Below, piece after piece: positions 14,987-54,200 of a stretch of DNA of 60,000 nt (positions within the stretch are counted from its first letter, which is position 1; every line of letters begins with the position of its first letter). This stretch comes from Bolinopsis microptera. Its lineage: Eukaryota; Ctenophora; Tentaculata; Lobata; Bolinopsidae. A model generated the notes under the pieces. It was not told the DNA's origin. It worked only from the letters and a program-made list of their open reading frames with translations, and searched no databases. The stretch covers positions 5,196,084 to 5,256,083 of the forward strand of contig NC_087072.1 in NCBI RefSeq assembly GCF_026151205.1, given 5' to 3'. Both the position numbers and the translations under genes were made by a program.

Positions 14987-15227
14987 ATCCCCGTTGTTAA
15001 AGGAATTAACACCCTCGTGAAATGTCACCTGATGCCTTATGAAAGTATCTTTAAAAGGGGAATAAGCCTAGGCTCATAACACCAAGGCCTCGTTCTAATT
15101 TGTATTGAAAAGCACTAATACAGACTGTTGTTTACTCAACACAAATTAGTTGTCTAGGTGATTCCACATTTTTACTTATTATTTTGTACGCTGCTTTTTC
15201 TTTTACCATTTTATTCTCCAAGTGCTA

Positions 15228-15572
15228 ATTGCAGAGCACTTTACTGTGCACCTCACTTTATCAGCTCAGTAACCGGTTGAAAAGCACTTTACTGTGCACC
15301 TCACTTTATCAGCTCAGTAGTCAGTAACCGGTTGCAGAGCACTTTACTGTGCACCTCACTTTATCAGTTCAGTAACCAGTTGCAGAGCACTTTACTGTGC
15401 ACCTCACTTTATCAGCTCAGTAACCAGTTGCAGAGCACTTTACTGTGCACCTCACTTTATCAGCTCAGTAACCGGTTGCAGAGCACTTTACTGTGCACCT
15501 CACTTTATCAGCTCAGTAACCAGTTGCAGAGCACTTTACTGTGCACCTCACTTTATCAGCTCAGTAACCGGT
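15228..15572. repeat. 48-bp minisatellite next to the giant palindrome
   Basis: Seven copies of a 48-bp unit with the fixed core GAGCACTTTACTGTGCACCT and a variable AACCGGTT/AACCAGTT end. The core GCAC-TTTACT-GTGC is a small hairpin. The array ends 59 bp before the left tip of the large inverted-repeat element. The unit is a multiple of three, so a 16-residue repeating frame exists on the plus strand; I treat it as fortuitous. Confidence 0.9.
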
Positions 15573-16257
15573 TATTTTTAACGCTACGAAGAGGTACCGA
15601 TAGTCGGATCCCAACCGTTCTAAAAGGCTATCTCGTTAGCTTTTCGTGTTAAAAGCGATTTCTCAACGGTTATCACCTCTCTAGATGATTCTTAAAACAT
15701 TTGGACTTCATTGCATTTTTGAAATAAATGCAATGAGGGCGTTTTCGGCCACACCCTTTTTCAGGGTTTCGCGGTCACTCGAATTTTTGTATTTCAGCCC
15801 AGGAAGGTCTTAAAGACTATTCCGATACACCAAAATATGCCTAATAGCCACATTTATATACAACTTATGAAGCAAAATATACCTTAAAATGCTTCGTTTC
15901 GGAAATATGGCCGAAAAACGGTTTTTGGCTTGACGCAGTTCATAATTTCCGTGATTTTTGGCATTTCCGTCTAGGAAGGTCGTAGAGACTATTCTGATAC
16001 ACTAAAATGTACATAATGGCCACATTTATATACAACTTATAAAGCAACATATACCCTAAAAGACTTATTTTCGGAAATGTGGCTGAAAAACGGATTTTTG
16101 CCGAGCGAACAATGACAATATTCACAAATGGGCTATTGGACTGTTAACTAGAAAGGTCTTAAAGACTCATGAGCAACACAGCATTTGTCACAAGATGTAA
16201 GATGACTCACTTTGTGTCCAGAAACACCTACAAAAATTGGAGAATGATCTACTTTAT

Positions 16258-16837
16258 TGGGCATCTTTCTTAATGGGCCAGGCCAGCAGCATATTTGTGT
16301 CTTACGAAAGGGCAATTTTACAAAATTACGGTTCTTTAGTAAAGTTCAATGGGTCAGTTGCTAACAGCAAATTGTTCGCAATTGCCGACTCATGCACATC
16401 ATATACTCAAAAACGCTCACTTTAGGAGTCATTAATAAATAACTACTACATGATTTGTGAAAACTCCAACAATTTTTCCTTGGCACCAATTTAAATAAAA
16501 TGTGTGACGTGCCGGACCAAAATTCAACTTCAAACTTTTTATTTATTCATGTCATGAAACCATGATATATGTTCCAAGAATACCGGACCTAAAATAAATC
16601 GACACTGGATCTGGGCCAGATTGTTGCTTGACCGCTGACCAGTACCCCACTTTATAATTATGATTGATTTCGCTGCCTCGACCAATATTGGTCTGTAATC
16701 CCTGGATTGAGATCTGTTGGCCGTAGTTTAATTTAGCTAATTTCCTATAATACCGCAGTGGTTTGGTTCCCACTTCAGAATGACCCCATATTCTTTTTTT
16801 CAGTCGCATAGATTTTCCCATCGTATGATAATGGGCA
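16258..16837. mobile_element. 568-bp insertion inside left arm of the palindrome
   Basis: The left arm is interrupted between TTTATTGGGCA (ending 16263) and GTATCGAGATAGCC (from 16838), whereas the right arm reads straight through the same point. TGGGCA is present on both sides of the extra DNA (16258-16263 and 16832-16837) but once in the right arm, which is what a 6-bp target duplication predicts. The inserted 16264-16831 has no obvious terminal inverted repeat, A-tail or coding frame that I recognise. Confidence 0.7.
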
Positions 16838-17167
16838 GTATCGAGATAGCCCGACCACTGGTCCGCGGACCACTGTCCGCGGACCACTGTCTGCGGACCA
16901 CTGTCTACCAGATCATATTACTGTATAATAACAGTATCCCCTGAATCAAGCAACAGGTGTTTGTGAATAGTTGATTGGTTACCAGATCATATGAATGGTA
17001 TGTATGGTATCTTGGATGCAATTAGTTACGACTAGCATAATTAATTGTAGCGTAGTAAATTACTGGATCAAACTATTGATTACGATTCAAATGTGGTCTC
17101 TCGGATATAATTAGTTACGAATAATATTGATTGCTCAATGAAATAAATGATTACGATTAAAATGTGG

Positions 17168-17174
17168 TATATAA
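17168..17174 (+). promoter_or_regulatory. TATA box of transposase fragment
   Basis: TATATAA lies 69 bp before the ATG of the zinc-ribbon frame in the loop of the large palindrome. Placement suggests the native promoter of the parent transposase gene was kept. Confidence 0.4.
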
Positions 17175-17242
17175 GTCGTTCGTTTTTGGTGAAGTATTAT
17201 CAGTTGCCATCATCAACAACAACAACTATTCCAATTCCTGAC

Positions 17243-17416
17243 ATGGTACTCTTCTGTCTAATGGACGAAATTAATGGACCCACCGCCTCCCTAGAGAATG
17301 CTAGAGACTTCCTATTCCAGAAAAACCTCCTAAAGAGCTCCATGTCCTGTCCTGGGTGTAATGCATCTATGTCCCTGGTTCCCTGCTCGTCCTCGAATAC
17401 TGTTATTATACAGTAA
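17243..17416 (+). pseudogene. ISXO2/Merlin-like transposase, N-terminal zinc-ribbon fragment
   Basis: The 57-residue frame contains DFLFQKNLLKSSMSCPGCNA followed by MSL. This matches the start of ISXO2-like (IS1016/Merlin) transposases: a helix ending in a hydrophobic Leu-Leu, then CPxCxxxMxL, the first knuckle of a zinc ribbon. The usual continuation (a second Cys pair after an Asp-Gly-x-x-Trp stretch, then the DDE nuclease) is missing. The frame instead runs into the right inverted-repeat arm, whose sequence supplies the last six residues and the stop. It is therefore a truncated gene, perhaps a first exon caught by an internal deletion. The family call rests on one motif and should be tested by profile search. 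Confidence 0.6.
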
Positions 17417-18115
17417 TATGATCTGGTAGACAGTGGTCCGCGGACAGTGGTCCGCGGACCAGTGGTCGGGCTATCTCGATACTGCCCAATAAAGTAGATC
17501 AATCTCCAATTTTTGTAGGTGTTTCTGGACACAAAGTGAGTCATCTTACATCTTGTGACAAATGCTGTGTTGCTCATGAGTCTTTAAGACCTTTCTAGTT
17601 AACAGTCCAATAGCCCATTTGTGAATATTGTCATTGTTCGCTCGGCAAAAATCCATTTTTCAGCCACATTTCCGAAGATAAGTCTTTTAGGGTATATGTT
17701 GCTTTATAAGTTGTATATAAATGTGGCCATTATGTACATTTTAGTGTATCAGAATAGTCTCTACGACCTTCCTAGGCGGAAATGCCAAAAATCACGGAAA
17801 TTATGAACTGCGTCAAGCCAAAAACCGTTTTTCGGCCATATTTCCGAAACGAAGCATTTTAAGGTATATGTTGCTTCATAAGTTGTATATAAATGTGGCT
17901 ATTAGGCATATTTTGGTGTATCGGAATAGTCTTTAAGACCTTCCTGTGCTGAAATACAAAAATTCGAGTGACCGAGAAACCCTGAAAAAGGGTGTGGCCG
18001 AAAACGCCCTCATTGCATTTATTTCAAAAATGCAATGAAGTCCAAATGTTTTAAGAATCATCTAGAGAGGTGATAACCGTTGAGAAATCGCTTTTAACAC
18101 GAAAAGCTAACGAGA

Positions 18116-22600: not shown

Positions 22601-25600
22601 TATACAACTTTGATTTTTACAAAAATTTCAATTTTGCTTCTCTCGACCTTGTTTGGTCTGTAACTTCTTCATCTATTTTTTAATTATAAAATCCTTTGAA
22701 GGGCTTCTTGTACGGATTATAAATAATGTTCAGTTAAAAAATCAGTCAATAAACGTTTAAAATGACCGAAATATCGGTATTACAGTGACAGACTTCTCAA
22801 AATTTCCAAAAATTTCGAAAAAGAAAATATTTATTTTTTCGAAAGTGCGGGTCCTCAAAAATAATTGTTAATGTACCAAATCTTATTGTTTTTATGTTGG
22901 CCTTGTTAGAAAGTCAAACCCAGGAAGCTCCCAATCAAACAATGATGATGACGAAGACGGCGAGGACGGTGAGGAGCGAAGCAAAACGAAGATCCTCAGT
23001 AGATGTGAATCAGACTCCGAACCGATCAACCCACCGTTGTGTGTGAGTCCGATCCCCCCAACAGGGAAAGTCGAAATGCTGGACAAGACCATTTTAGGAA
23101 GAATATCGCAACAGTTATTTGAAACTCTGGGAAATATGTCCTTATTCGGCAACCACTCAATCAGCTCGGATTTAGATCTAGACGATACAATCGATCTTAG
23201 CGTGAGTATATCCCTAGGTAAAGGAGGTGATCTCGTTATAACCCCGAAACCCAGAAGCAAGCCATCCAGACCACTACCAACGATCGAGATTACCCCCGCC
23301 AAGAAACAAAACGACCCGAATACAGACGGTGAATACTATACAGGAACAGGAAAACCAACGATTACTCCTGTTCTTTTACACAGCCCTAAACATGAACACT
23401 TGCTCTCACCTCGTTCACGAACTCTTCAAATTCGTTCAAGGAGCAAGTCTGTAGGGAGTATCTTTCAACATGAGCAACCTTCTGCGATTTTGAAAAGGAA
23501 GCTCAGAGCACAGACTGAGTATGAGTTTGCAAGTGACACGCCCGTTAAAAGACGGTACCTCTCTGAATCCGCAGCTGACTCACAGGACCTCTTTGAGTCA
23601 CCCCGCAAACTCGAGTGTATCAGAATTGACGACGAAGGGTACCATGACTGCTCTCCAGGTAGGAACACGCTGATCCATATTAAACAAGATTTCCTTAAAG
23701 ATGATGAGATCGTCACGCCAGTCAATCTTGTCGCTGCTCTTGAAAATGCTCTCAATGAGAAATACCAATCAACCAGATTATTCGCGTCTGAAGTACACCT
23801 CCTTGAGCAACAAGCCCACAGCAAATGCATCAGCTTAACCTGGAACCTGTCAGACATAGAGGCTATTGAAAATGATGATAAGGCAGATATTCTGTCAAAA
23901 TTGCTGGTTAAACTCAATCGTCATTACCACGACACAAACCTGGAATCGCCCTCCACTGCCTTTAACTCGCTCAGAGTTACTAGTCTACTTGGAAGGAGCG
24001 ACAAGGTTCCTATCACACTACAGGGAGACGAAGAAGTCACTGATGCACTAGTGTTACTCCATTTAGGCCGAGAGCGTGCAGTTAACATCATACCAAAGAG
24101 ATTCAACAACGACCTGATGGATGTCTTTGACCTATGCCTAGGCAACCTTACAGCCTTATCCGTCCTAGAAAAGACCAGAAGGGATATGAGCATTAGCCTG
24201 GCTATAGAAAAACCCCTCGAGGATGAACTAGATTTTCACTTACTAGTACAACTGCAACGCAAACGACACAGGACGCCAATTGTTCTCCAACCAGCTCCTG
24301 AAAACACCCACTGTAGTCCCCTAACTGACGCAGTACAAGGGATAACTGGTTTAGCAAGCAACGTCCCCGCCCCTGAACAACTTCATTGTGAGGGTGACAA
24401 CGGAAGTCTGCCCGACTTACAAGATAAACAAGACGACACCACCATTGTTGAAAAACAACTGCGATTTTTCTCGAGAGATACCTGCGACAAGATTCTTAAC
24501 AGTGCCTCGTCTAAGAATCTCAACAAGTGGATAGACCTTTGTGGCCTAACCAGTCAGAAAACAAACGAGCGAAGTCAAACTGCAATTAAAGCGTTTTTTA
24601 ACCTTGTGATTGACAACAAATACAGCACGTACCCGTCAGCACCTCTCATAACTAGTCTGGTCGAGAAAATGGCAGTTGATTCGCTAGATCGAGAACTCAA
24701 AAGGTTTGAAATAAACTTCAACCCGCAAACTCCTGTTGACAATAAAAAGAAACTGCTGCGTGACCACGTCAACACTATTGGGCGCGAAGCTAGAAAGGCA
24801 AATCCTCCAGATCTCATTAACTCTGAGACTGACTCTGAGTCAATATCTTCTGAACTCAGCAATGCCTCTAGCAGAAAGGGCTACAAAAGCTGTAACTCGA
24901 ACAACAGCTCCAGTAACAGTGCACAGGGCAAGACGCAGAATACAGAAAAGAAAGTAAAGGTCAAAGTTAAGAAGACGAGGAAAGCAAGACAGATCTTAAC
25001 CCCCGGCAAAATTAAGGTCCCTTGCAGCACTCACGAATCGATAGAAAACTCAATACGACTCCTTGAGCAGAACTTACTAGAATTCCAAGAAAAGCTAGCA
25101 AACCAAGATTCAGTTCTGTCCTCCTTAGCCAGTCAACTCAACTCCAGCGCCCTACTAACCAGCTCGAAATCTCTAGCCACGCTGGTCAACAAAAACAAAA
25201 CAATATTTGATACCCTAAATATTCAGCAAAACTCTATCGACAATATCATGGACAGAATGATAGAAGGAGAAAAAGAACGGAAACGTATCCAAGACCAAGC
25301 TCACAGAGCAACGGCAGAAAAGGTTTTTCGATCCAAGACCCTTGAACTTGAAAAACAGATAGCTGATTCAGCCAAGGAGGTTAACTACTTAAAAAGCGAG
25401 CTCGCAAGAATGAAAAACAACGAGCCGAACCAATCCAATGAGATACGCATAATACAGGCTAGACACAGCGAAGAACTCAGCAAACTCAAATCCGATATCA
25501 TGGGGATGAAGAGTGTACCCGGAAGTCATTCGAACGGGGTCAATTATCCCAACCAATATGATGGAGTCGACGAAAAAAGTGCGATTCTAAGTCATTTGGA

Positions 25601-28600
25601 AAATTTCAATAGACGCGCTACGAATGATTTAGGAGACAAGATTCTCCAAGGACAACGAGAAGGGTTTGAACTTATCAGCCGAGAGATTACAGCGTGTTTC
25701 AAAGATCTGCCTAAAATCAACACAGCAGGTCAAGAAGGTAACATCCAGTCTGCTAACAAACCTCGCGCTAATAGTTTTGAACCGAAACACCAAAACGATG
25801 CCGCCAACAAAACCCCCGAGGACCCCCTTACAAGACCAAACGACAAAAAACGCACGGCACCACACAAAGGAAAGAAAGAGAATATGCCGAGTCAAAAGGC
25901 TGAAGACCCAGTCACCTTTTTGTCCGAGGGAACCACTAAAAGCACGACAACTGCTGGTGCCAATAAACAAAGCAAAAATAACAGTGATGGCACCCCTGTT
26001 AACCGTGAAACGTACCGTCGTGACAACTTCAATCCTCAACATTGGCACACCCGGAAATGTGTAGTCATTCACGACGCACACTTCAATACCTTCGACGAAT
26101 CAAGATTCACGAAACGTTTTGATGTCAAGAGGATAGAATATGATACTGCCGTATCAGCTAGCAGGGACCAAAACTTAGTCAAAAAAGTCTCAGAAATCAA
26201 CCCTGAAGCCATTTATATCCATCTAGGGCAACTTGATGTTCTGATGAATACGCCAGGAAACACGATACTAGATGGTATGAAGAAAATCTTGGATGACCTA
26301 ACAAAAGCAACCTCAGCAAAGATATGTGTTTCGCAGATTATTCCACTCCCCGGCTATCCACAAGTCAGCAGTACCATAAGACAGATAAACTCTGAACTAA
26401 GCGAATACGTCAAATCCAAGATTAATGCTAGCCTAGACATAAAAATATGCACGCAAAACAATGACAATCTCGGAGGATTCATCCAGCGCAGCGTAGGACC
26501 ACATGGAGTCTTGTTGGGTCTCGATGAACGAGGGGCTCGGAAATTGTGGCTTCATCTCCGTGACGGGCTATTTAGATCTCTCGACATTGAGCTATCAAGA
26601 GGGACTAAAAACTCAATCAAACCTCAACAGAAGAAAAACCATAATGGATAGTCCCAAAACAACTGATGTCCTGATCAGATTGCCTTCCCACAACAGGGAG
26701 ACATTGAAAATCCTTTCGTGGAACATACACGATGCTTCAAACGGGAAAGAAGGCAGGAAAATTGATGATACTGAATTTGCTGCCATTGTCACTTCTTGTC
26801 CCATTTTCTGTCTTCAGGAAACCAAGAGTAAAATATTTGTTCCAGACTACAAATGTTTTAATGCTAACAGACCAAACAGTCGCTCAGGTGGACTTTGCAT
26901 TGGTGTCCACAGGTCTATTGCCAAGGATATCAAAGAAATAACATCCAATTGTAGTGACATCCAATCAGTAAGGATAAAACTAGGAAGTGAGAGTGCTGTC
27001 GATGAACTAGTTATCATCAACTTATACGACTCACCTGAGCACTCTTCCTACAAGAAGAGATTGAAATCATGCAAAATTACATCCGATGACGATGCTTCAA
27101 CTCTAGACAACTTACTTGACTTCACCATGAATAGTATTCAAAACGGTAGGAAGGTGATACTAGCAGGTGATTTCAATGCAAGGACCGCAACCTTGAACAA
27201 CACCATCGAGGAAGATACTGAAGCATTATCTGCTGCAAACCCATTTAGCCAACGCAGCCACCCCTGTCTCAATGATCGTTCTAGCAAGGACCAGATGGTT
27301 AATCCTAGAGGAAAGTTACTCCTTGACTTTCTGGCCTGTGCAAATCTAACCATCCTAAACGGCAGCGTACTTGGCGATTCCTTAGGGGAATTCACATCGG
27401 TGAATTATGGCGGAGCTAGCGTTGTAGACTATGTTGCTGTAGGAGCTGACATAAAAGCGATCGTTAAGAGTTTTAGAGTCCTTGATTTGAACAAATTCTC
27501 CGATCACAAACCCTCTGTCACAACACTTAGCCTGAGACACAACATAACCCTTTCAGAAGAAATACTGCGTGACCTCGAGGACGCGCCCAGGAAGTACAAA
27601 TGGCCATGTGAGGATAATGCTGAGCTCAAATTCTTGCTAGCTATGGGTGACCCTAGTATAAAGGAAAAGACGGAAACTCTGGCTACAAGTTCATGCAAAA
27701 CCCCTCAAGACGTTCTTAACCTTAACAACCAAATTGTTGAGCTGTATCATCAGGTTGCTGAACAAGTGATGCCCCGAAAAAACGCCTCAAGTCGTCAGAA
27801 AGGGCCGAGACATAATAAATATGGTAGCACCAAAAAGAAGAGTCGAATGAAGCCAAAAATGGCATGGTTTGACAGTGAATGTATCCGTCTTAAGAGGACA
27901 CTCAACATTCTAGCAAAAAAGTATGGAAGATCCCCATTGGACAAGCTCCTCAGGGACTCTTATTACGACACACGGCGACAATATAGAAAGATGATCAGAC
28001 ATAAGCGATCAGAATTCTTTGAGAAGCTTTGCAAGGACATAGAAACAGGGAACAACATCTGCTGGAAATCCTTCAAAGCTCTTAAAAATACAAAATCGCC
28101 TGCAACCAGTCTTGATGCCTTCGATATGATCAACTTTTGCAAGTTCTTCAGTGAACTTTACGGCAAAAAGAACATCAAAGACTCTAAGATCGCAGAGCTA
28201 CAGTCAAAGATGCAGAAAAACAACATTTGTGACGACCTGACCAAGCTTTTGGATCAAGATATAAAGATGGAAGAGCTGTGTGCTTGCATTAAGGCCACTA
28301 AAAAAGGAAAGGCAGTTTCCGAAGATCTAATTTCTAATGAATTCTTCAAAGCCTCAACACGATCCATGCTCAAAGCAGTCCTCAACCTCTTCAACCACTG
28401 CCTAAGCCTATCAATTTACCCATGGACTTCATCAGTAGTTACACCACTACACAAAAAAGGTGATATCTATGATCCAAACAACTACAGAGCCATCGCTGTA
28501 GCGAGCAATCTCGGAAAGCTCTTTGCAAGCATATTGCTGAAAAGATTGATATCATTCCGTGATCAATGTGATCCTGATACAGCCAACCAACTAGGTTTCT

Positions 28601-31353
28601 GTAAAGACGCACAGACAGCAGACCACATTTTCACACTTTCAACCTGCGTGGAAAAGTATGTCACCAAGAAACGCCAGAGGCTATACACATGCTTTGTCGA
28701 TTATGCCAAAGCGTTTGATTCCATCTGTCGTGAGGCACTCCTATACAAGTTGTGGAAAATGGGTATTCAAGGGAGATTCTTTGAGTGCATTAAGTTCATG
28801 TACTCAAACTCCTCAGCCAAAGTGAAGCTACTAGACAAGCTGTCACAGAAGATCGACATATTATGTGGTACCGAGCAAGGACACCCCATGTCCCCTGAAT
28901 TGTTTAAATGCTTTGTCCACCAGCTTTCACATGATCTCAACAACATCGAAGGAGTGAAAGTCCCTGTCCTAAATGATACAGATATAACTCATCTGCTATG
29001 GGCAGACGACCTTGTCCTTCTAGCCCTCAACAAACACAGTCTTCAACAAATGCTTGATGTCCTAAACAACTACTGCTCAGAATGGGGCCTGACAGTAAAC
29101 ATTGGAAAAACTTCAGTCCTTGTGTTTAACCCAACAGGAAGGCATCTGAAGGAAAGTCATGAGTTCAAACTGGGAGAACAACAGATCCCCTCCGGGAGAG
29201 AGTACTGTTACCTTGGCATTACATTTACTCTGAGCGGATCACTTAAGCTAACACAACAAAAGCTGAGGCAAAAAGCATTAAGAAGTTATTTCTCTTTGAA
29301 AAGCTACATTGATACCCGCCACATCAGGAAATCGATACTGTTCAAGCTATATGATACACTTATTGTACCTGTGGTGTCGTATGGTTGCCAAGTGTGGCTG
29401 CCAAGCACAGCTCTGTTCCGCAACTTCCCCACAAACACGAGCACCACACCAGAAACAGGAAACGTGTGTACACTCATTGCCAGGGACCCTCTAGAGAACT
29501 TTCATCTGTCTCTTTTGAAATGGACCTTAGGGGTGAGGAAGTCAACATCCAATGCTGCGATATGGGGTGACACAGGCAGGCATCCACTAGGCATCACGCT
29601 ATCAAAGCAAGTGTTCAACTACAAAGAAAGACTTGAACAAATGGTTGTAGACGGCCGTGACTGCTTTGCTAGACACGCTTTCGAAGAGCAGGCGACCCTA
29701 AACCTGAGCTGGTTCTCCACTCTCGAGCAGATGCAAGAAACCATCGAGGCATCAGAGAGAAACCAAGGATTAAGACCAAGCCAGATTAGAAAGAGTTTGC
29801 AAAAGTGGTTTATAAACTCATGGGAAACAGAAAGGTCATCTAACAGAAAACTATCATTCTACAACTTAGTGAAGAGAAAGTTTGCTCAAGAGACGTATCT
29901 AGCCCTTGATCTTAAACCTAACTGCTCAAAGAAGATCGCGCAATTCAGAAGCAGCTCCCACCGCTTTAACGTTGAAACTGGTCGCTACGGCAAAAAGCGG
30001 TTTAACATAAAACATCGGGCCTGCAGACATTGCTGCTCAAGTGACGATGACTTGTTAGATCTTCTCTATGAGCTACCAGGGGCCTATCCAGTGATAGAAG
30101 ATGAGCATCACATCCTCTACGAATGCCCCCTATACGAAGACCTACGCAAAAACCTGCATCAACGAACGAGGGACCTGTTAGTAATGAGAGAAGAACCGGG
30201 AGAAATCTTCGACGACTCAACAACTATTAGAGACATTGGACGGTTTTTAAATAAGGTCGATGAACGGAGGTTCCCAAAGAAAAATACTGAATGAATGTCG
30301 TGTTTTGTATATTTTGATAAGTGTGTGGACATTGTATGATACTTTCATTGTCATTTTTGAGTGCTCTTGGCTGAGTTTTTTCTGCATACGACTGTGCTAT
30401 CTGTGCTATATTCTTTTACATGGCTATCTACTTTTACCACCTTGTTTGGTTATTTGTTACATTGGGGTAGTTTTGAATATTAAACCTTCTATTCCTATAT
30501 TGGTCAGACACGGCATCTGCCGTTTGACCCAATTTTGTTTAATTCCTGTTTAATTCCTGTTTAATTCCTGTATAGTTTCTTAATATGACGTTAACAGCGG
30601 GGCCAGGGCATAAAAGATGTTGGTGTATGTCCCCTTAAATAGTAACCGTAGTAACAGTAACCATAGTAACAGTAAATATTTTCAGTTGAAGAGCGGGAAA
30701 CCAGGGGAGGTGTTTAAAGATGGGTCCCCAGATAACCCTTTTCTTAACCCTCCTTACCCCAAACTATCAGAACTAGTCAACCACATTATCAAGTTAGTAT
30801 ACTACTACCGCAGCTACTGAGTTGTTTTATTTTTTACCAATTTAACAATATAAATACCCTGTTGCACATTTATTAGATATTTGATGCGATCACTGATGTA
30901 CTTACTACTCGATAGATTCAACTTTATTTTTAACATTATATTTTAATGATTGCTTTATCCTATGCGAATTTTTAATTTGGAATAATCTCTTCATCTGATA
31001 CAAGTTATTTGAATGTTTGGTATTTCAGGATGAGAAGAAGTGGACGAGACTGGGACGGGCACTGGATGCCAGCTCACGAGTTCTGCAACCTCTGCGTTAA
31101 CAAGTTCAACTACATCATCCGACTAGAAGACGAACCGTTAGAGCTTTGGTATTTAGCAGAAAAGTTGGGTCTTTGGAAAGACAGGACACTGTTTTTAAAT
31201 AGGGCTAATAACTCGACTAAGAAAGAAACTGAGTTGGGCGAAGTTTGGGAGGAAATCAAAAAGTTAAAAAAAGAACACGTCGATTTTTTGAGCAGGCATT
31301 TTGATGTGGATTTCAAAATGTTTGGGTATCGAAGGGACAAAGGTGATTCTTGA
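19660..31353 (+). CDS. Carbohydrate sulfotransferase (CHST8-14 type), nine exons
   Basis: Exons 19660-19717, 19870-20025, 20213-20634, 20786-20886, 21069-21204, 21412-21510, 21767-21922, 30686-30792 and 31029-31353 join in phase to 1560 nt (519 residues). Residues 1-20 hold a signal anchor (YVLVAFLSILLIL), as in type II Golgi enzymes, followed by a long Gln/Asn/Pro-rich stalk. The PAPS 5'-phosphosulfate site is WCPVFKSGSTTW, the 3'-phosphate site is FTIVRHPYSRL, and the C-terminal GHWMPAHEFCNLC with IIRLEDEPLELW is typical of the family. The predicted reaction is transfer of sulfate from PAPS to a glycan in the Golgi lumen; the acceptor sugar cannot be read from sequence. All junctions are GT-AG; the donor at 20635 (GTTTTT) is weak. 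Intron 7 (8.8 kb) holds an intact LINE. A convergent paralogue lies 2.2 kb downstream. Confidence 0.88.
22054..22463. mobile_element. 410-bp fold-back element in sulfotransferase intron 7
   Basis: Arms of about 145 bp (22054-22200 and 22320-22463) are inverted copies. They share AAAATTCATCGTAAAAAGGG, CCAAACATGGCAGATTTAAGGC and ACGAATCTTTTAGTACCAAA, written here in left-arm sense. The spacer of about 120 bp is AT-rich and non-coding. AAGT occurs at both ends, but the exact tips and target duplication are ambiguous. It lies just before the LINE and could have inserted into the LINE 5' region or next to it. Confidence 0.75.
23076..26651 (+). CDS. LINE ORF1 protein with coiled coil and SGNH-like domain
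   Basis: From the first in-frame ATG at 23076 the product has 1191 residues; the frame is open back to 22872 without another ATG. This is long for a LINE ORF1. Residues about 610-640 are rich in basic residues (KKVKVKVKKTRKARQ). Residues about 655-810 form a probable coiled coil (RLLEQNLLEFQEKL, KTLELEKQIADSAKEVNYLK). Residues about 990-1180 look like an SGNH/GDSL esterase fold, a domain known in ORF1 proteins of several CR1-group LINEs. Here, however, the block I Gly-Asp-Ser position reads IHDAHF, the block III GxND position reads GQLD, and the last block reads GPHGVLLGLDERG. The nucleophile Ser seems lost. I see no CCHC knuckle. The likely role is RNA-particle assembly. Confidence 0.75.
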   Translation: MLDKTILGRISQQLFETLGNMSLFGNHSISSDLDLDDTIDLSVSISLGKGGDLVITPKPRSKPSRPLPTIEITPAKKQNDPNTDGEYYTGTGKPTITPVLLHSPKHEHLLSPRSRTLQIRSRSKSVGSIFQHEQPSAILKRKLRAQTEYEFASDTPVKRRYLSESAADSQDLFESPRKLECIRIDDEGYHDCSPGRNTLIHIKQDFLKDDEIVTPVNLVAALENALNEKYQSTRLFASEVHLLEQQAHSKCISLTWNLSDIEAIENDDKADILSKLLVKLNRHYHDTNLESPSTAFNSLRVTSLLGRSDKVPITLQGDEEVTDALVLLHLGRERAVNIIPKRFNNDLMDVFDLCLGNLTALSVLEKTRRDMSISLAIEKPLEDELDFHLLVQLQRKRHRTPIVLQPAPENTHCSPLTDAVQGITGLASNVPAPEQLHCEGDNGSLPDLQDKQDDTTIVEKQLRFFSRDTCDKILNSASSKNLNKWIDLCGLTSQKTNERSQTAIKAFFNLVIDNKYSTYPSAPLITSLVEKMAVDSLDRELKRFEINFNPQTPVDNKKKLLRDHVNTIGREARKANPPDLINSETDSESISSELSNASSRKGYKSCNSNNSSSNSAQGKTQNTEKKVKVKVKKTRKARQILTPGKIKVPCSTHESIENSIRLLEQNLLEFQEKLANQDSVLSSLASQLNSSALLTSSKSLATLVNKNKTIFDTLNIQQNSIDNIMDRMIEGEKERKRIQDQAHRATAEKVFRSKTLELEKQIADSAKEVNYLKSELARMKNNEPNQSNEIRIIQARHSEELSKLKSDIMGMKSVPGSHSNGVNYPNQYDGVDEKSAILSHLENFNRRATNDLGDKILQGQREGFELISREITACFKDLPKINTAGQEGNIQSANKPRANSFEPKHQNDAANKTPEDPLTRPNDKKRTAPHKGKKENMPSQKAEDPVTFLSEGTTKSTTTAGANKQSKNNSDGTPVNRETYRRDNFNPQHWHTRKCVVIHDAHFNTFDESRFTKRFDVKRIEYDTAVSASRDQNLVKKVSEINPEAIYIHLGQLDVLMNTPGNTILDGMKKILDDLTKATSAKICVSQIIPLPGYPQVSSTIRQINSELSEYVKSKINASLDIKICTQNNDNLGGFIQRSVGPHGVLLGLDERGARKLWLHLRDGLFRSLDIELSRGTKNSIKPQQKKNHNG
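26644..30294 (+). CDS. LINE ORF2: APE endonuclease and reverse transcriptase
   Basis: Translation from the ATG at 26644 gives 1216 residues. An in-frame ATG at 26503 exists but would overlap ORF1 much more. The APE-like endonuclease comes first: SWNIHD (about residue 24), CLQETK (57), AGDFNA (173) and SDHKPS (285) carry its Asn, Glu, Asp/Asn and Asp-His signatures. The reverse transcriptase follows, with FVDYAKAFD (684), EQGHPMSPELF (743) and the catalytic box WADD (785), then GKTSVLVF and YCYLGITF. A C-terminal Cys/His cluster (CRHCC near 1126, EDEHHILYECPLY near 1151) fits the zinc-knuckle tail of this class. All catalytic positions I can see are present, so the enzyme may be active. Clade within the CR1/L2/Jockey group was not resolved. 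Confidence 0.9.
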   Translation: MDSPKTTDVLIRLPSHNRETLKILSWNIHDASNGKEGRKIDDTEFAAIVTSCPIFCLQETKSKIFVPDYKCFNANRPNSRSGGLCIGVHRSIAKDIKEITSNCSDIQSVRIKLGSESAVDELVIINLYDSPEHSSYKKRLKSCKITSDDDASTLDNLLDFTMNSIQNGRKVILAGDFNARTATLNNTIEEDTEALSAANPFSQRSHPCLNDRSSKDQMVNPRGKLLLDFLACANLTILNGSVLGDSLGEFTSVNYGGASVVDYVAVGADIKAIVKSFRVLDLNKFSDHKPSVTTLSLRHNITLSEEILRDLEDAPRKYKWPCEDNAELKFLLAMGDPSIKEKTETLATSSCKTPQDVLNLNNQIVELYHQVAEQVMPRKNASSRQKGPRHNKYGSTKKKSRMKPKMAWFDSECIRLKRTLNILAKKYGRSPLDKLLRDSYYDTRRQYRKMIRHKRSEFFEKLCKDIETGNNICWKSFKALKNTKSPATSLDAFDMINFCKFFSELYGKKNIKDSKIAELQSKMQKNNICDDLTKLLDQDIKMEELCACIKATKKGKAVSEDLISNEFFKASTRSMLKAVLNLFNHCLSLSIYPWTSSVVTPLHKKGDIYDPNNYRAIAVASNLGKLFASILLKRLISFRDQCDPDTANQLGFCKDAQTADHIFTLSTCVEKYVTKKRQRLYTCFVDYAKAFDSICREALLYKLWKMGIQGRFFECIKFMYSNSSAKVKLLDKLSQKIDILCGTEQGHPMSPELFKCFVHQLSHDLNNIEGVKVPVLNDTDITHLLWADDLVLLALNKHSLQQMLDVLNNYCSEWGLTVNIGKTSVLVFNPTGRHLKESHEFKLGEQQIPSGREYCYLGITFTLSGSLKLTQQKLRQKALRSYFSLKSYIDTRHIRKSILFKLYDTLIVPVVSYGCQVWLPSTALFRNFPTNTSTTPETGNVCTLIARDPLENFHLSLLKWTLGVRKSTSNAAIWGDTGRHPLGITLSKQVFNYKERLEQMVVDGRDCFARHAFEEQATLNLSWFSTLEQMQETIEASERNQGLRPSQIRKSLQKWFINSWETERSSNRKLSFYNLVKRKFAQETYLALDLKPNCSKKIAQFRSSSHRFNVETGRYGKKRFNIKHRACRHCCSSDDDLLDLLYELPGAYPVIEDEHHILYECPLYEDLRKNLHQRTRDLLVMREEPGEIFDDSTTIRDIGRFLNKVDERRFPKKNTE
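30502..30572 (+). promoter_or_regulatory. LINE 3' end: hairpin plus 11-bp tandem tail
   Basis: GGTCA…TGACC pairs around an inner CGGCA-TC-TGCCG stem (30502-30529). It is followed seven bases later by three copies of TTAATTCCTGT (to about 30572). In CR1/L2-like LINEs such a stem and short repeat are recognised by the element's own reverse transcriptase; that role is inferred here from position. Confidence 0.55.
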
Positions 31354-45225: not shown

Positions 45226-48200
45226 TCAAGACTCTAGAGTGTGATAGTGACAGAAAATAGAGTCCTTGATGAGCTCCTTACTGTGTTTCCTCTTCTCACA
45301 ATCCCTCTCCAAACAGAGATTAACAAAAGCAGCCAGATGTGGAGGAGTCTCCCCAGGTAGAGGCATCTTCAGGGTGTCCCGGTAGATGTGGTACTGGGCT
45401 GTCTCGGAGTCCAGCTCTCCCCAGGGGGTGTCTCCTCGTATCATCTCAAACATGGCTATACCTAGAGACCACACGTCCACCTTCCGTCCCGCTTTTCCTG
45501 AAGTGTTACACTGTTACACTGTTACACTGTTACACTGCTACACTGTTACATTGTTACACTGTTCACGGTTACATTGTTACATTGTTACACTGTTACACTG
45601 TAACACTGTTACACTGTTACTAGTAACACAGTGCTGCACTGTAAGGTTACACGTGTGTTATGCTGGCAACTTGGAAGTGGCAGTAGCAATAAAATGTTCA
45701 ATCAGTACCACTGATACTGTTTAATCAGTGCGATGATTTATAACTCATAAGTTAACTTTACTAAGGCTAAGAAAGGGAAATAGCAATGTACGGTGTACCT
45801 CTCCCTTCGATGAGCTCAGGAGCCCTCCAATGAGGATTCCCGACTTGGCTGCTGAACAGTGAGCAGTGCGTGTCTGTGAACGACTTCGAGATACCGAAGT
45901 CTGCTATTTTTATCACGTTTGCTCTGCTTATCAAGATGTTCTTTGATCGTAAATCCCTGAAGTAATTAAAGTGTTGAGTAAGAGTTAGGGTAAAATACTA
46001 ATAATTGATAATATCATTTATAATCCGGAGGAATTTATTATTATTAAATCAAAGTTCTAAACAAGGGATAGTTAAAAAACAACGCCCAAGTCTAATCTTT
46101 CCCTAAAACAATAATTAAATATCAAAAACTTCATTGTAATTTCTGCCAATATCTCTTGTCATAAGCTAAATTACGGAGATAATACAGATCAAAAATATTA
46201 TTCATATAAAAATGTTTACATAAATCATGCATAATCAGCGAGAATAGATTGCTTTAGCTTTCTGCTTTGGGGTCTTCCTCTTCTCCCTGGTAAGTCCAGT
46301 GTATTGATGGCAAAAATGGGAATTTGTATCTAAAAAATGTATTCTTGGTTAAAAAATTACGATTGGAGTTACATTGTTATCTTATGATACGAGTGAAGGA
46401 AATTTTTTTTTTCTTTTAATTTTTTTTTGAGTGAAGGAAACTTGTATTCTTATTTTCTACCGAAAGCTTCTTTTTTGCCATACGGTTCATTCCTATTTTG
46501 AATAGAATACTACGACAGAGCTGTTAAGATAAGTATTTTTGCACTTCTATCCAAAACCATAACATATGCCTAGAGACTTCTTCATGATCTGGAACTTACG
46601 GCACTTGGCTTGTCGATGAACGGTTTTAAAACGGAGTTTATACCAACATTAATCCCGATGAAGCTAACATCCGTGCTGATGTGCATAAAACGGAAGATCC
46701 TTGGAGCAGGTACAGGCCTTTACATACCTTGGATCCTACATTGCTGACAGCAGTATAAAGTAACACCAAAAAGGTATGGCATGGTCAGCATGTATGAAGC
46801 TTCAAAAAGTGTGGACGTCTGGTATCTCGGATCGTGCTAAAGTTAAGTGTTTCAAAGCGTGCATCTAGCCTGTTCTTCGGCATTCATCAGAGAGTTGGAC
46901 ACTAAACATAAAATGAGAAAAACGTTTAAATGGCTGCTACACGAAACTCCTCATCAAAAACTTACATTAAAAGAAACATCCAAACCTTCGTCAAATCTAT
47001 GGCATGGTGACCTTCCTCAGTTCCTCCCATTACCTCCGTCCTAGCCCAACGAAGAGCTCGCTTTGAGAGTCACTGTAAGAGGGCCGAATCTCGGGCCATA
47101 TCAACAGTCCTGCTTTGTCGCCTGCTTGGGCAGAAAAAACCTTAACCTGGTAACCTTGTTGCCTGCACAAGAGCAATTCTAACTGCACATGTTGTATGCA
47201 CAGTAAACTTTTCTCAAGGCATGGGCGCCTCCCGCAAGTTGGCCGCTGTAGAAAGCCTCTAACATACTTAGAACTTAGAGATACAGAAGTTGATATTGGT
47301 GATCTACGGTTTACTATACTCGATCGTGCTGTTTGGAAGAAACTTTTTGAGGAAATTTCGATGGATAGGTCATTATAGGAGGACCGCCACAAGAAAGTAA
47401 GTAAGATAAGTGTGAGTAGAACTATTGATATAATATTTATGTTAGCCTTGATTCAATTTAGTTAGCTTTGATTCAATTTAGTTAGCTTGATTTACTTTAG
47501 TTTCTTCTAAATAAAAATAGCAGGAATTTAATTTCGGAAGTTAAAATTGTAAATTCAGATCTTGACATCTCTAAGTCTAACACATGTGTTCGTGTCTGCA
47601 GACACCATCGTCACATCTAATGGTGCCACTAGGACAGTCACCGTCATCATCTCCACCATCATCATCTCCACAATCGTTGCAAGTCCTTCTGCAGTACTCT
47701 ATGAGGTCCGCATACTCGCAGTGGATTGCTGAGCAGTATTGAGACGCATCCTGACAGTCTGGGTCGGCTGTTGGGACTGGCTTGTCGTCTTCAGAGGGTA
47801 TGTAAGAGGTAGCATCGTCGGCGGGAGCTGTGTCTGACTTTCCAGTCCTCTTCAGGACGGGGTAGCTGCTGTACTTGAAGAGACCACAGTTGTGGTAGTT
47901 CCTGGCGTACTTGACGAACCCTTGGTCTCCCCAGGCATTTCCCCAGGAGTTCTTTACGAGAACGAATTTCTCTGTGTAACCGACAGCAGTGACAGCGTGG
48001 TTGGGTCGTCCTGAGCAGGTGGTGTCCTTGATGATACCACCGGAGTACTGTTGGAAGTAGTTGGTTACCTCAAAAGCTACAGACAGTGACCCAGAAGCAA
48101 GAGCATTAATATTAGCAGCCTCTGTACCCCCAACATTTTTGTATCCTGTGATTTTGTACGCTACCAGAGCGTTCGGCTTGCTACTTCCTAGACACCTTCC

Positions 48201-51200
48201 GTCTTTCTGTGCGTATTTGTAGTCAGCGGAGGAAGCCAGGCGTCCACCGTTCTTCGAGGAGTAATCGTAACCATCATCTGGCCATCCCCCGTTGCATCCG
48301 TCTCTGCCAGCATTCTCATAAGTACAGTCAAGGTACTCCTGTTCGGCAAAGTCCCTCAGAGTTCCTGAGAGTTGCTTGTATCTAGTCTCCAGTCCTCCAA
48401 CTGCTCCGAATGTCCAGCATGATCCACATCCTCCTTGGTTCTTGACTTCCGTAACTGAACCCTCGTTCGTCCACAGTTTCTTTGCGGGAGCTTTGAGCAG
48501 AGGTGAAGAGAGGAGAACGTCGTTTTCTTTGTGTCCAGTGACGTTGAGTCCGAGATACTGTCTCTTCTCATCACCAGTCATAGCAGAGAAGAAGTTCAGA
48601 GCGAAGACTGCATCTCCTTCTTGTTCGTTGGCGTCAGCTACAAACTCAGCGTTAGATCGGAACATTCTGAATCTCATCCTATCTCACCAGATCCAAAGGC
48701 AAGGTGTTCCTTTGCTTTGTAGTTGGAGTATAGCTTGAGGGTCTCCTTCGGTGATCGGAGGATGCTTCTCAGGTTCTCAGCAGCGACGTAGCTGGCCAGC
48801 AGGCAGATTGCTAGGAAGAACTTCATCTTGGATTTGGAATGGATTCTAAGGGAGGCTGAAACTGTTTTTATAGTGTCGATTTTCGAATTAGCACAATTTT
48901 GTAAAATGCCGCATTGTTTTTGTTTCCAGCCGCTAAATTGATTTGTAGCATTGTTGCACAGCTGTTTCTCCTTTGAAAGTTTCAAGAAGGTTCCAACACG
49001 TGACAGTGATTGTTTGACTAACGAGTTTAGACCCTCACTTTAACTCTTTTTCTAGATCTCTTGACGAATCTCGCAACTATGGGGTACTAGAATCTTAAAA
49101 GTACCTGATTTTCATGTTTCTTGGTCCTGGAGGCTTTTAATTTCGGAAAATGAAATAATTCGAGATAGGTATTAGCATTTTGTAAACAAATTCCGCCATC
49201 TTCTAAATACTTAGTCTTCTCTCAGTCAAAGATAATAAATGATTTTAAAACTCTCTATTTTAATATTGATCGTTCCAGTGACCGAGTATGCCAAGAAGGC
49301 TTTCATATGGACAGTCTTGGAGCACACCCTACTTATTGATAATGAAAGTCCTGTCAGTTTAGCCTCCTGCTATTAATTTGACATGTCAAACAGCCTCAAA
49401 GGTAAGCAAAGTCACCAAGCTGATTTAAAATAACGTGATGTTGGTTTTCACAAAAAATGTCGATGATTGTTAATCTCAAAAGTATTGGAGATAATAGAGC
49501 TTGATGGAGAAAACATCTTCGCTTAGAATATATTGATTTATAACCCACTGTCTTTTATGTAGATGTTAACATTACTAGCAGAAACCCGTCTAACACTAAA
49601 GTGGTGTCAAGATAAAATAATATTTATCAATTTATTTATTTTGTGATTTTGACACCACTTGAGGGTCCAAATTTCGGGACCTAAGGTTCTTATTCCTTGG
49701 CCAATTTTTTATTTCTTCGCACTGGTAAAAAAGCAATAAAAGCATTCGACCCAACCAAAAATGCTCTGATTGTCACCATTTCAGTAGGAATTTAAGAACT
49801 TTCTTCTCCATAACTAGTAATGGCACCCGTTAAATCCTACCATAAAGCACAATGTAACTAGTTTAAATACAGTTTTTCCTGTGTGGAATCAAATAATCTA
49901 CCTCACGTGCACTCTCGACTACCTCTCCCGCTAAACGTTTGAAGTCAAACTGTACAACAAGATTAAACACCTGGTTCTCTAAACACTTGACAACACAAAT
50001 TGTTTAACTTGTCAAATATTAAAGAGTGCCTGTAAAATCACATTAGCAGGCTCGCGAGTAGGGAAAACACCTCCGTGTTAAACTGGTTTTAAGGACGATG
50101 TTTGTAAAGATGACGCTTCAACTTTGAACAATCATCCTATCTGAGAACTATAAGACTTGTTAATTGACTTAGACAGTTCACAGGATGAATTTTAAAAGAT
50201 AGCGGACATAACACGCTACCTACTGCGAAAAGATCAAAAACAATGCGACATTTTACATTGTTTACAAAATTGGGCTAATTTAGCAGCTAAATAACAGACT
50301 ATAAAAACAGTGTCAGCATCCCTTAGAATCCATTCCAAATCCAAGATGAAGTTCTTCCTAGCAATCTGCCTGCTGGCCAGCTACGTCGCTGCTGAGAACC
50401 TGAGAAGCATCCTCCGATCACCGAAGGAGACCCTCAAGCTATACTCCAACTACAAAGCAAAGGAACACCTTGCCTTTGGATCTGGTGAAGATAGGATGAG
50501 ATTCAGAATGTTCCGATCTAACGCTGAGTTTGTAGCTGACGCCAACGAACAAGAGGGTTCCGCCGTCTTCGCTCTGAACTTCTTCTCTGCTATGACTGGT
50601 GATGAAAAGAAACAGTATCTCGGACTCAACATCACCGGACACCAAGCTAACAGCATACCTGGCCCCCTTTCCTCATCTGATCTCCAGGCTGATCCCCCCG
50701 CAAAGAAACTCTGGACTAACGAAGACGCTGTTACCCCCGTGAAGAACCAAGGAAGCTGCGGATCCTGCTGGACATTCGGAGCAGTTGGAGGGCTGGAGAG
50801 CAGGTACAAAGCACTCTCTGGAACACTGAGGAACTTTGCAGAACAGGAGTACCTTGACTGTGTGTATGAGGGCTTCAGAGACGGATGTAACGGAGGGTGG
50901 CCAGATGACTGCTACACGTACTCCCAAAACAACGGAGGACGACTTGCTGCCACCAAGGACTACTGGTACGGACCTGTCGACGTCAAATGTGAAGCTGACA
51001 ACAAGCCTAATGCTCTGATTGCTTACAAAATAACAGGATACGAAAGTCTAAGAATGGGTGAGAGATATAACATCGCAGCTCTTGCTTCTGGGTCACTGGC
51101 TGTAGCTTTTGAGGTAACCAACTACTTCCAACAGTACTCCAGTGGTATCATCAAGGACACCACCTGCACAGGACGACCCAACCACGCTGTAACTGCTGTC

Positions 51201-54200
51201 GGTTACACAGAGAACTTTGTTCTTGTAAAGAACTCCTGGGGAAGTGCCTGGGGAGACCATGGGTTCGTTAAGTTCGCCAGGAACCACGATAACTGCGGTC
51301 TGTTTGATTACAGCACCTACCCCATCCTCAAATCAACTGGTAACCAGGACTCAAACGCTGACGAGGCCACTACTTACAGACCCTCTGAAGACGATGAGGT
51401 CTGTGAGGATGTATCCAGCTACTGCAGACCTGACCACTGCCAGTCCCCTGATCTCATACAGTACTGCAGGAAGACTTGTAACGAGTGCGGAGATGATGAT
51501 GGTGGAGATGATGACGGTGACTGTCCTAGTGGCACCATCAAGTGTGACGATGGTGTCTGCAGACACGAACACATGTGTTAGACTTAGAGACGTATATAAT
51601 AATCTTTACTAAATGGTTTTAAATGTTTATTTTTAATTTGTTACCCTTCAACAAATTTTAGACTGAAAATTCCATTGACGAACTTTGGTGGGCGGTGGCT
51701 GAGCTCCATTTATGGTCTACTGTAACTTCTAGTAACTTCTATTAACTTCTAGTAACTTCTAGTAACTTCTAGTAACTTCTAGTAACTTCTAGTAACTTCT
51801 AGTAACTTCTAGTAACTTCTAGTAACTTCTAGTAACTTCTAGTAACTTTTAAAATAAGCCAATACAGATCGGTAGAAACACATAGCAGTTTCTAGTCATA
51901 GATTACACTTGTGTAAGTGTCAAAGTGTAATCCATGACCAGAAATGTGGTTTTCTTTATAATTTAGGTACAAAACAATGCAAAACTCCACAGTGATTTTA
52001 CTGTTTACGTGGCTGCCGGATCAGTTTCCGGTCCCAAAGCCTCCCAGTGAAACACACAGTAGCAGCTAAGTCGTAGTTGGATTGTAGCGACAAGAGATGA
52101 CATACGATATTGTGTTTGTCTGTCTGTAGTACTGTAGTAATGTGTAGCAAACAGTTTGAATCAAACTGTTTGCTACACATTACTAGTTTGATACATATTA
52201 CAAAGAATGTAGAAGAAATAGGTGATTGTGTAATCTGTTTTTTGAGTAGCACAATTGGCAACGATGGTTTTATTATGGTAAAATTATGTTCCTTAATATA
52301 TTACATTCGTTGGTTCGTTACATGTTTGGTTCGTTGTAATTTCTCAAGAACTGTTTGCAAACATATTATAATTCTGATGGCATCTCGAGATTACAAGTAC
52401 AGCAACAGCACACTTTATGGCATTGAAAGTGATGCTTTAAGGTACACTTGGGCAGGATACTTCCTATTCATCATCATCTCATCTTTGATAGGGGACACAG
52501 CCATTCTTATAGCGTCCATGAAGTACAAAGCTTTCAAATTTCATAGAGCAATCATCATCATAATCGAACACCTAGCAGTCTGTGATCTGATGGTAGTTGC
52601 TACGGACGTTGTCCCAAAACTTGTTTCTCTCATAGCAAATAAGCAGGTGCTCGGGAACTATCTTTGTTTCTTGTCTCCATACGCTAGATTCTACTTCAAC
52701 CTGGCAAGCCTTTTCCTCATCTGCATTATGACATCCGTCAAACTGCTCCTCCTCAAATATCCCCTTAGATTTGGAACGACAACAGAGAAGCAAACACACA
52801 TTATTTGCACGGCAAGTTGGTTGGCAGCTTTCGCTTTCCCTATCACATTTCTTATTGTAGATAGAGATGATATTTACTTTTCATACCGAACCTTTAAATG
52901 CACTTACGGTTTCTCATCAGAGATTTGGATCTTGCTGAAGCATTGCCTCGCTCTCTTCTTCGTTCACATTCCAGTCCTGCTGGTTGTAGCCACAACAGTA
53001 CATTTGCTGATCATAGCCAAACAGTTTGCTCGCCGGAACCGACAAAGTCTAAAGTGGCAAGGAATCACAACTTCTGTGCTGACAGCAACAATTTACTGCA
53101 TATCTGTCCTTCCAGTGACCCTGTACTACATTGGAGAAGCCATCCTAAAGGGAGAGAGCAAGATCCTCTTCCATACCCACTGCTATAGGGTAGCGAATTC
53201 CTTCGTTTTCCTGAACACCATCAGCAACTTCTACATATATAGTCTGACCGTTGACAGCTTTAGAGAGTTTGTCCGGACCAGAATGCTGCAGTGTGCTTCC
53301 ATCAATGGAAATTATGCTAATCGTGGTAAGAGACTTGTCAAATCTAAGTTTAAGCGTTGATTGATTTTATTGATTTTATTTCAACTCTTTATGAATTACC
53401 ATTTTTAACAGGAGATCGGAGATATGGGGTACAAACAAGCAGAACAGACATTACTGAGGGTGATCAACAAACACCGATCTAAGGACTAAGGAGCTTGTTT
53501 TGATACCACAAACTTGCACCAAGAACCCTGATTAGGCGGTAGCCGACCATGATTTTAGAATTTTTAGGGTGTGGTAATGGAATCATGATTGTGACCATTA
53601 CCAAAATTTCAATTTTCAGTGCTCATTCTGGTCAGTTGAGATTTCTAATATTTGACTGTGATAATATTAATTGATAATCAATTAAAAGTTGATACGAGGG
53701 ACCGTATTTAAAGTATGATTTTTTAGTCCTGTCAATGTTTCCCATAAGTTATCTATCCACATTTATTCGATGGATCTTAATAACTCAAGAGATAAAAGTA
53801 GGAGTAGTAGACGTTCTTTTAGTGTCAAGATATTTTCAATACTGTTGATTGAGTTGTGTCTTAGTGAAGTCCATCAAATGCAAAGTGTACAATCGACTTG
53901 CAGTTTTAAATTTATCCTTATACTTTTAGATTTTAGAGCAAAAGTCTACATTGTTAATTGTTATAGATAAAATATTCTCTGATTTCTGAAATTAATTTTG
54001 TTTGCAGCAAAATATGAGTATATTTTGTTAAAATACATTTTAAGACTGTCTATCGGATGATGGAGCCACTGCTTACAACTATCCAGTTCCCCGGTTGAAT
54101 TTATATAGAATCCTTGTTAAGTTGTTACTTTGCTCTTTAATTTGCTGGCTAGACAAAGCATTTTGCGACAGTTCTGATTTATCAACTTAGCAATAATCTT

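Follow-up and report, generated by a model that had tools for sequence, protein, structure and literature searches.

A large inverted repeat that encloses the beginning of a transposase gene raises a simple question: is it one transposable element, or more than one? Such a structure occupies positions 15601-18115 of a 60,000-nucleotide stretch of the genome of the ctenophore Bolinopsis microptera, the whole of which is called the window here. The original prediction described one giant palindromic element carrying the front end of an ISXO2/Merlin-like transposase. The inverted repeats are real, but they do not belong to one element. The structure consists of two unrelated nested elements, a short and broken Merlin inside a long palindromic element, which we call INNER and OUTER, respectively. 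Rather than a Merlin with giant arms, it is very probably the product of an insertion of INNER into OUTER, followed by a deletion.

Features are given below in window positions, and on the plus strand unless stated otherwise. The outer inverted arms, at 15631-16263 and 17483-18115, are 633 nt in length and 99% complementary; a match of this quality over this length is far beyond chance, and it recurs genome-wide. Each outer arm contains the two diverged blocks that had been predicted, being 149 nt each with starts 172 nt apart. In the left arm they span 15781-16101 and are 83% alike (repeat family D2), and the right arm is built in the same way (repeat family D3). The inner inverted arms are found at 16829-16937 and 17397-17491, and 459 nt separate the innermost arms, in agreement with the expected loop of about 460 bp. 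The arms of more than 700 bp ascribed to one element do not stand, as this figure is the sum of two distinct inverted repeats and skips 565 bases of the left side (16264-16828) for which the right side has no counterpart. The roughly concentric layout of the inner and outer repeats around a Merlin-type frame would suit a single Merlin-group element that has an internal deletion and inverted repeats of unusual length; the unpaired 565 bp are a first point against it.

Just left of OUTER, and not part of the element, lies a tandem repeat of mostly 48-bp spacing (15218-15573, repeat family D1). Rfam gave no match in the window at gathering score. Further along, two overlapping long frames occupy 23037-30294, the second with reverse transcriptase and endonuclease domains of the non-LTR type, and the first with no Pfam match at 0.001. 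Papain-family cysteine protease frames are present on opposite strands, at 47577-48677 (minus) and 50310-51581 (plus), and a rhodopsin-type receptor frame at 57217-58224.

The two inverted repeats occur apart in the genome. A search with a 663-base INNER query (16829-17491), in which the best 40 of 359 candidates were scored, recovered scattered copies of its own, and a search with the OUTER query 15600-16833 (the best 40 of 1210 candidates scored, its counts being lower bounds) recovered many places that match without the INNER part. By BLAST, INNER DNA is absent from 25 OUTER loci, several of them partial and with L002/L039 and L003/L041 being the same places, and OUTER DNA is absent from 29 INNER loci. 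The ends of the two families are different as well. INNER starts with GGCAGTATCGAG, with a terminal 5'-GG, and ends with CTCGATACTGCC; both tips are present in 22 of the 29 loci (L010-L038), and the other 7, without one or both exact tips, were not counted. Among these 22 tip-to-tip copies, an 8-bp target duplication is exact in 18, has a one-base mismatch in 3 (L012, L019, L029) and is absent in 1 (L016). The true tips of OUTER are TAGTC...GACTA, and a 3-bp target duplication was found in 21 of 21 copies picked from those with exact tips at both ends, while mismatched flank pairings agree in 14 of 420; 19 of these 21 duplications have A or T as the middle base. With the repeats occurring apart, the tips differing and the duplications being 8 bp versus 3 bp, the single Merlin element is refuted for the copies examined and keeps almost no probability.

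The left part of OUTER in the window (15601-16833) comprises a tip termed E1, TAGTCGGATCCCAACCGTTCTAAAAGG, from 15601, then the arm from 15631 to 16263, and more OUTER sequence up to the junction with INNER. The exact E1 tip at C1:5211684 corresponds to window position 15601, and window 15600-16837 is 99.7% alike in alignment with an independent copy, L039. The sequence TCTCGTTAGC, which had been proposed as the terminus, does occur at other genomic places, as expected of a true family; these are OUTER copies and not Merlin copies, and they extend outward from it by another 20 or 30 bases, starting TAGTC, when complete. In the complete copies L039, L040 and L041, the arms measure about 0.94-1.15 kb. 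The E1 tip has 90 exact matches in the genome, and the other tip, E2 (TAGTCNGAGACGAAACGGA), has 59. When each plus-strand tip was paired with the next minus-strand tip at no more than 12 kb, partnerless tips not being counted, 48 of 49 pairs consisted of one E1 and one E2, and the remaining pair was E1-E1 (the E1 tip at C12:4651463 is used in two of the 49). The commonest tip-to-tip length is 3.4-4.0 kb.

Some OUTER copies stand head-to-tail, at C7:14570820-14577759 (L082-L084) and at C7:16511438 (in L008), with a junction at which the terminal TA is held in common (GACTAGTC); the pair at C7:14570820-14577759 as a whole has TCT on both sides. Related tips, TAGTCGGAGACCAACCG, are present in L109 (C4:13162400-13165930) and L108, which are diverged OUTER relatives. 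At least one of these two seems to span just about 0.6 kb, with an inexact right tip.

INNER itself is a 653-bp internally deleted Merlin element at 16834-17486. Its left inverted repeat (16834-16937, 104 bp) contains subrepeats around GTCCGCGGAC, and its right inverted repeat (17397-17486, 90 bp) follows an internal-deletion join at about 17396. The frame of a longer relative, L018, has the same start as the window peptide and continues into DDE_Tnp_IS1595 (PF12762) at E 1.4e-15, over the cut-off, and the L022 frame also matches this domain (E 2.2e-07); PF12762 has no match in the 236-codon frame of L017 or the 159-codon frame of L024. The domain is absent from the window copy. Since longer INNER copies continue the N-terminal frame into DDE_Tnp_IS1595, INNER is a deletion derivative of a Merlin, and the front end in the window is of the ISXO2/Merlin type, as first proposed. 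The idea of an internally deleted derivative thus holds for the inner piece; it fails for the long arms, which are not Merlin's own but those of a distinct family, with different tips and duplications of 3 bp. Six of the 29 INNER loci have the internal breakpoint seen in the window, exactly in L010, L011, L013, L015 and L026 and with one mismatch in L012, and the other 23 are without it. Folded alone as DNA, INNER is very stable (z -24.7), because its inverted repeats require it.

The frame left in INNER starts with ATG and reads MVLFC...CPGCNASMSL...VIIQ over 57 codons plus stop (17243-17416). The internal-deletion join and the right inverted repeat supply its final six residues (NTVIIQ) and its stop codon, in line with the prediction that the arm ends the frame. 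An earlier ATG (17147) opens an 89-codon frame. Upstream are the predicted TATA box, TATATAAG at 17168, and an initiator-like TCAGT at 17200 (together 17168-17204), promoter-like sites whose function is suggested by sequence only. Judged by its longer relatives, the frame is a genuine transposase N-terminus. The relatives read CPGC...RCSPC, as does a second family (L053), and the spacing of these Cys pairs is what the label of a putative zinc ribbon rests on. The IS1595 zinc domain model, which we take to be PF12760, has no match at E<=1 in the window peptide, L018, L053 or L058, and other zinc-ribbon models match relatives weakly (E 0.066-0.26, the best being 0.066 in L024).

It had been suggested that this peptide, if expressed, could be a dominant-negative regulator of its parent transposon. 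The TATA-like and initiator-like sites ahead of the frame are in keeping with this, and so is the fact that the same 57-codon frame is also open in L010, in L013 and, with one residue changed, in L011. However, the frame of L012, which shares the breakpoint, ends ten residues sooner, and open frames persist in young copies without selection. The expected profile match for the 57-residue frame failed, with no Pfam match better than E 0.13, and its identity comes from the longer relatives. To call it the DNA-binding half was an overstatement, as the peptide ends after the first CxxC and retains one of the two Cys pairs. Because it stops before the second pair, a DNA-binding repressor is doubtful; a dominant-negative DNA-binding role is unlikely, and the regulator as a whole is highly improbable. 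The truncated peptide probably has no function.

How the two elements came to be joined can be read from the edges of INNER in the window. INNER is flanked by TGATAATG on the left and CAATAAAG on the right, and the 8-bp duplication is lacking. About 1.54 kb of OUTER, as measured on L039, is missing beside INNER, together with the right 8-bp duplication. At the right join, 4 bp (TGCC, 17483-17486, no strand assigned) are common to the right end of INNER and the complete OUTER arms. What remains of the right arm of OUTER (17487-18115, minus strand) lacks the terminal E2 tip, such that only the E1 end is complete, and the 3-bp duplication of OUTER is not visible because its right end is gone. The sequence directly after 18115 was found only at its own place in the genome; the flank from 18116 is unique, and the idea that it is another repeat was rejected on this ground. 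A recent origin of the right arm by copying of the left arm beside it is not supported: these two arms are 98.9% identical, and the left arm of a different copy reaches 99.2% identity with the right arm.

In the order we favour, OUTER, a DNA transposon with long inverted arms in which no transposase was found, would have inserted first. The 653-bp INNER would then have jumped into OUTER, using transposase supplied from another locus. Afterwards, a deletion of about 1.5 kb with its join at TGCC would have taken away the right INNER duplication, the middle of OUTER and a portion of its right arm; the right tip of OUTER would also have been lost. Given the differing flanks, the missing 1.54 kb and the TGCC, a single deletion after insertion suffices, with the caveats that a 4-bp microhomology can arise by chance and that one of the 22 INNER copies, L016, likewise has no duplication. 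The junction could instead have come from recombination of two INNER copies at different OUTER sites, or from one-ended (adjacent-deletion) transposition of INNER, rather than from simple end-joining. Either route predicts what is seen at INNER, with both ends exact and different flanks on the two sides. Neither of them calls for the TGCC at the right join, which would suffice for a single deletion; we regard these routes as the less likely explanation.

A transposase that moves OUTER was not found in the OUTER copies examined. The L059 transposase, searched by tblastn against the 25 OUTER loci, gave no match at 1e-3 that would point to a Merlin transposase, and L039-L041 contain no frame above 133 codons. 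The copies L042, L061 and L100 are interrupted by different frames of 845-961 codons which appear, by eye, to be reverse-transcriptase-like. That three longer OUTER copies carry such frames instead also counts against a single Merlin element, and an autonomous OUTER copy among the longer copies L042, L045 with L061, and L100 was rejected for the same retroelement-like appearance. The 8.1-kb copy L101, which includes about 4.7 kb without match to OUTER, was set aside as an autonomous copy, with no frame of 130 codons or more in a stretch covering most of it. The relatives L108 and L109 show no transposase by eye. PF13359 (DDE_Tnp_4) has 114 matches, counted over the genome as a whole.

Compared with known systems, OUTER resembles PIF/Harbinger and other superfamilies with 3-bp duplications in the length of its duplication and its preferred middle A or T. 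Unlike PIF/Harbinger, it has no transposase found in it, and TAGTC is not known as a Harbinger tip. The Foldback-type families Tetris, Galileo and Mutator/Foldback Tm1 make longer duplications. In the portions of the published accounts used here, they are like OUTER in long inverted arms, internal subrepeats and the lack of a transposase in the copies seen, and unlike it in that OUTER makes duplications of 3 bp and has short, asymmetric tips beyond its long arms. Merlin differs from OUTER by its GG ends, in place of TAGTC, and OUTER duplications were 3 bp throughout. INNER, on the other hand, agrees as a family with Merlin (IS1016/IS1595-related) in its GG ends, its inverted repeats (about 90-104 bp in the window copy), its 8-bp duplications and the DDE_Tnp_IS1595 domain of its relatives. 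A point of difference is a CPxC...CxxC motif ahead of the catalytic domain. The sections of PMC8101967 used here give Merlin repeats of 24-462 bp, terminal GG and duplications of 8-9 bp, and report Merlin in three ctenophores already (Mnemiopsis, Pleurobrachia, Beroe).

One tip-to-tip relative of INNER is unlike Merlin in having a second gene beside the transposase. This 2,666-bp relative, L059 (666-3331), has GAGCACAG on both sides and is the same genomic copy as L018; its transposase frame begins like the window peptide and spans 295 codons from stop to stop, shorter than that of L053 (320). The second frame is convergent with the transposase in L059 and co-directional with it in the putative L053 element (C8:17503093 region). 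The two second proteins are 41% identical over 160 residues (1e-29). Their matches to CCDC106 are weak (1.2e-4 and 2.5e-5, short of the curated cut-off), and those to helix-turn-helix models are weaker still. The genome has 58 PF12762 matches, of which 12 have a second-protein match within 3 kb and 46 have none, against a mean of 0.125 and a maximum of 1 at random positions in 200 rounds; in one of the 12 pairs, the two matches are separated by 2.9 kb and may belong to different elements. Copies of one family are not independent, and therefore the safe count of two-gene Merlins is at least two families. Among the Merlin papers surveyed, as far as their titles and opening lines of abstracts go, and somewhat further for PMC8101967, a two-gene Merlin was not found. 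The part of PMC8101967 used here describes an extra frame in another Merlin family, which overlaps the transposase and was judged by its authors as probably due to chance.

We tentatively suggest, at somewhat less than an even chance, a two-gene Merlin lineage in which a partner gene with helix-turn-helix and CCDC106-like features would be retained next to the transposase in two or more diverged families, in different relative orientations, and whose product could act with the transposase. Separately, and just as tentatively, OUTER may represent an undescribed superfamily in which each element has one E1 and one E2 tip.

The window locus is a case of ordinary genome wear, although the OUTER and INNER families both have unusual features. 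The apparent giant-armed Merlin can be removed from consideration, and the locus illustrates that the concentric inverted repeats of nested elements can mimic one structure. Two better targets are offered by the same genome: a palindromic family with asymmetric tips and 3-bp duplications, in which no transposase was found, and a Merlin lineage with an accessory gene. If the two-gene reading is true, deletion derivatives reduced to fragments of either gene, the window copy among them, would be moved by a two-protein machine.
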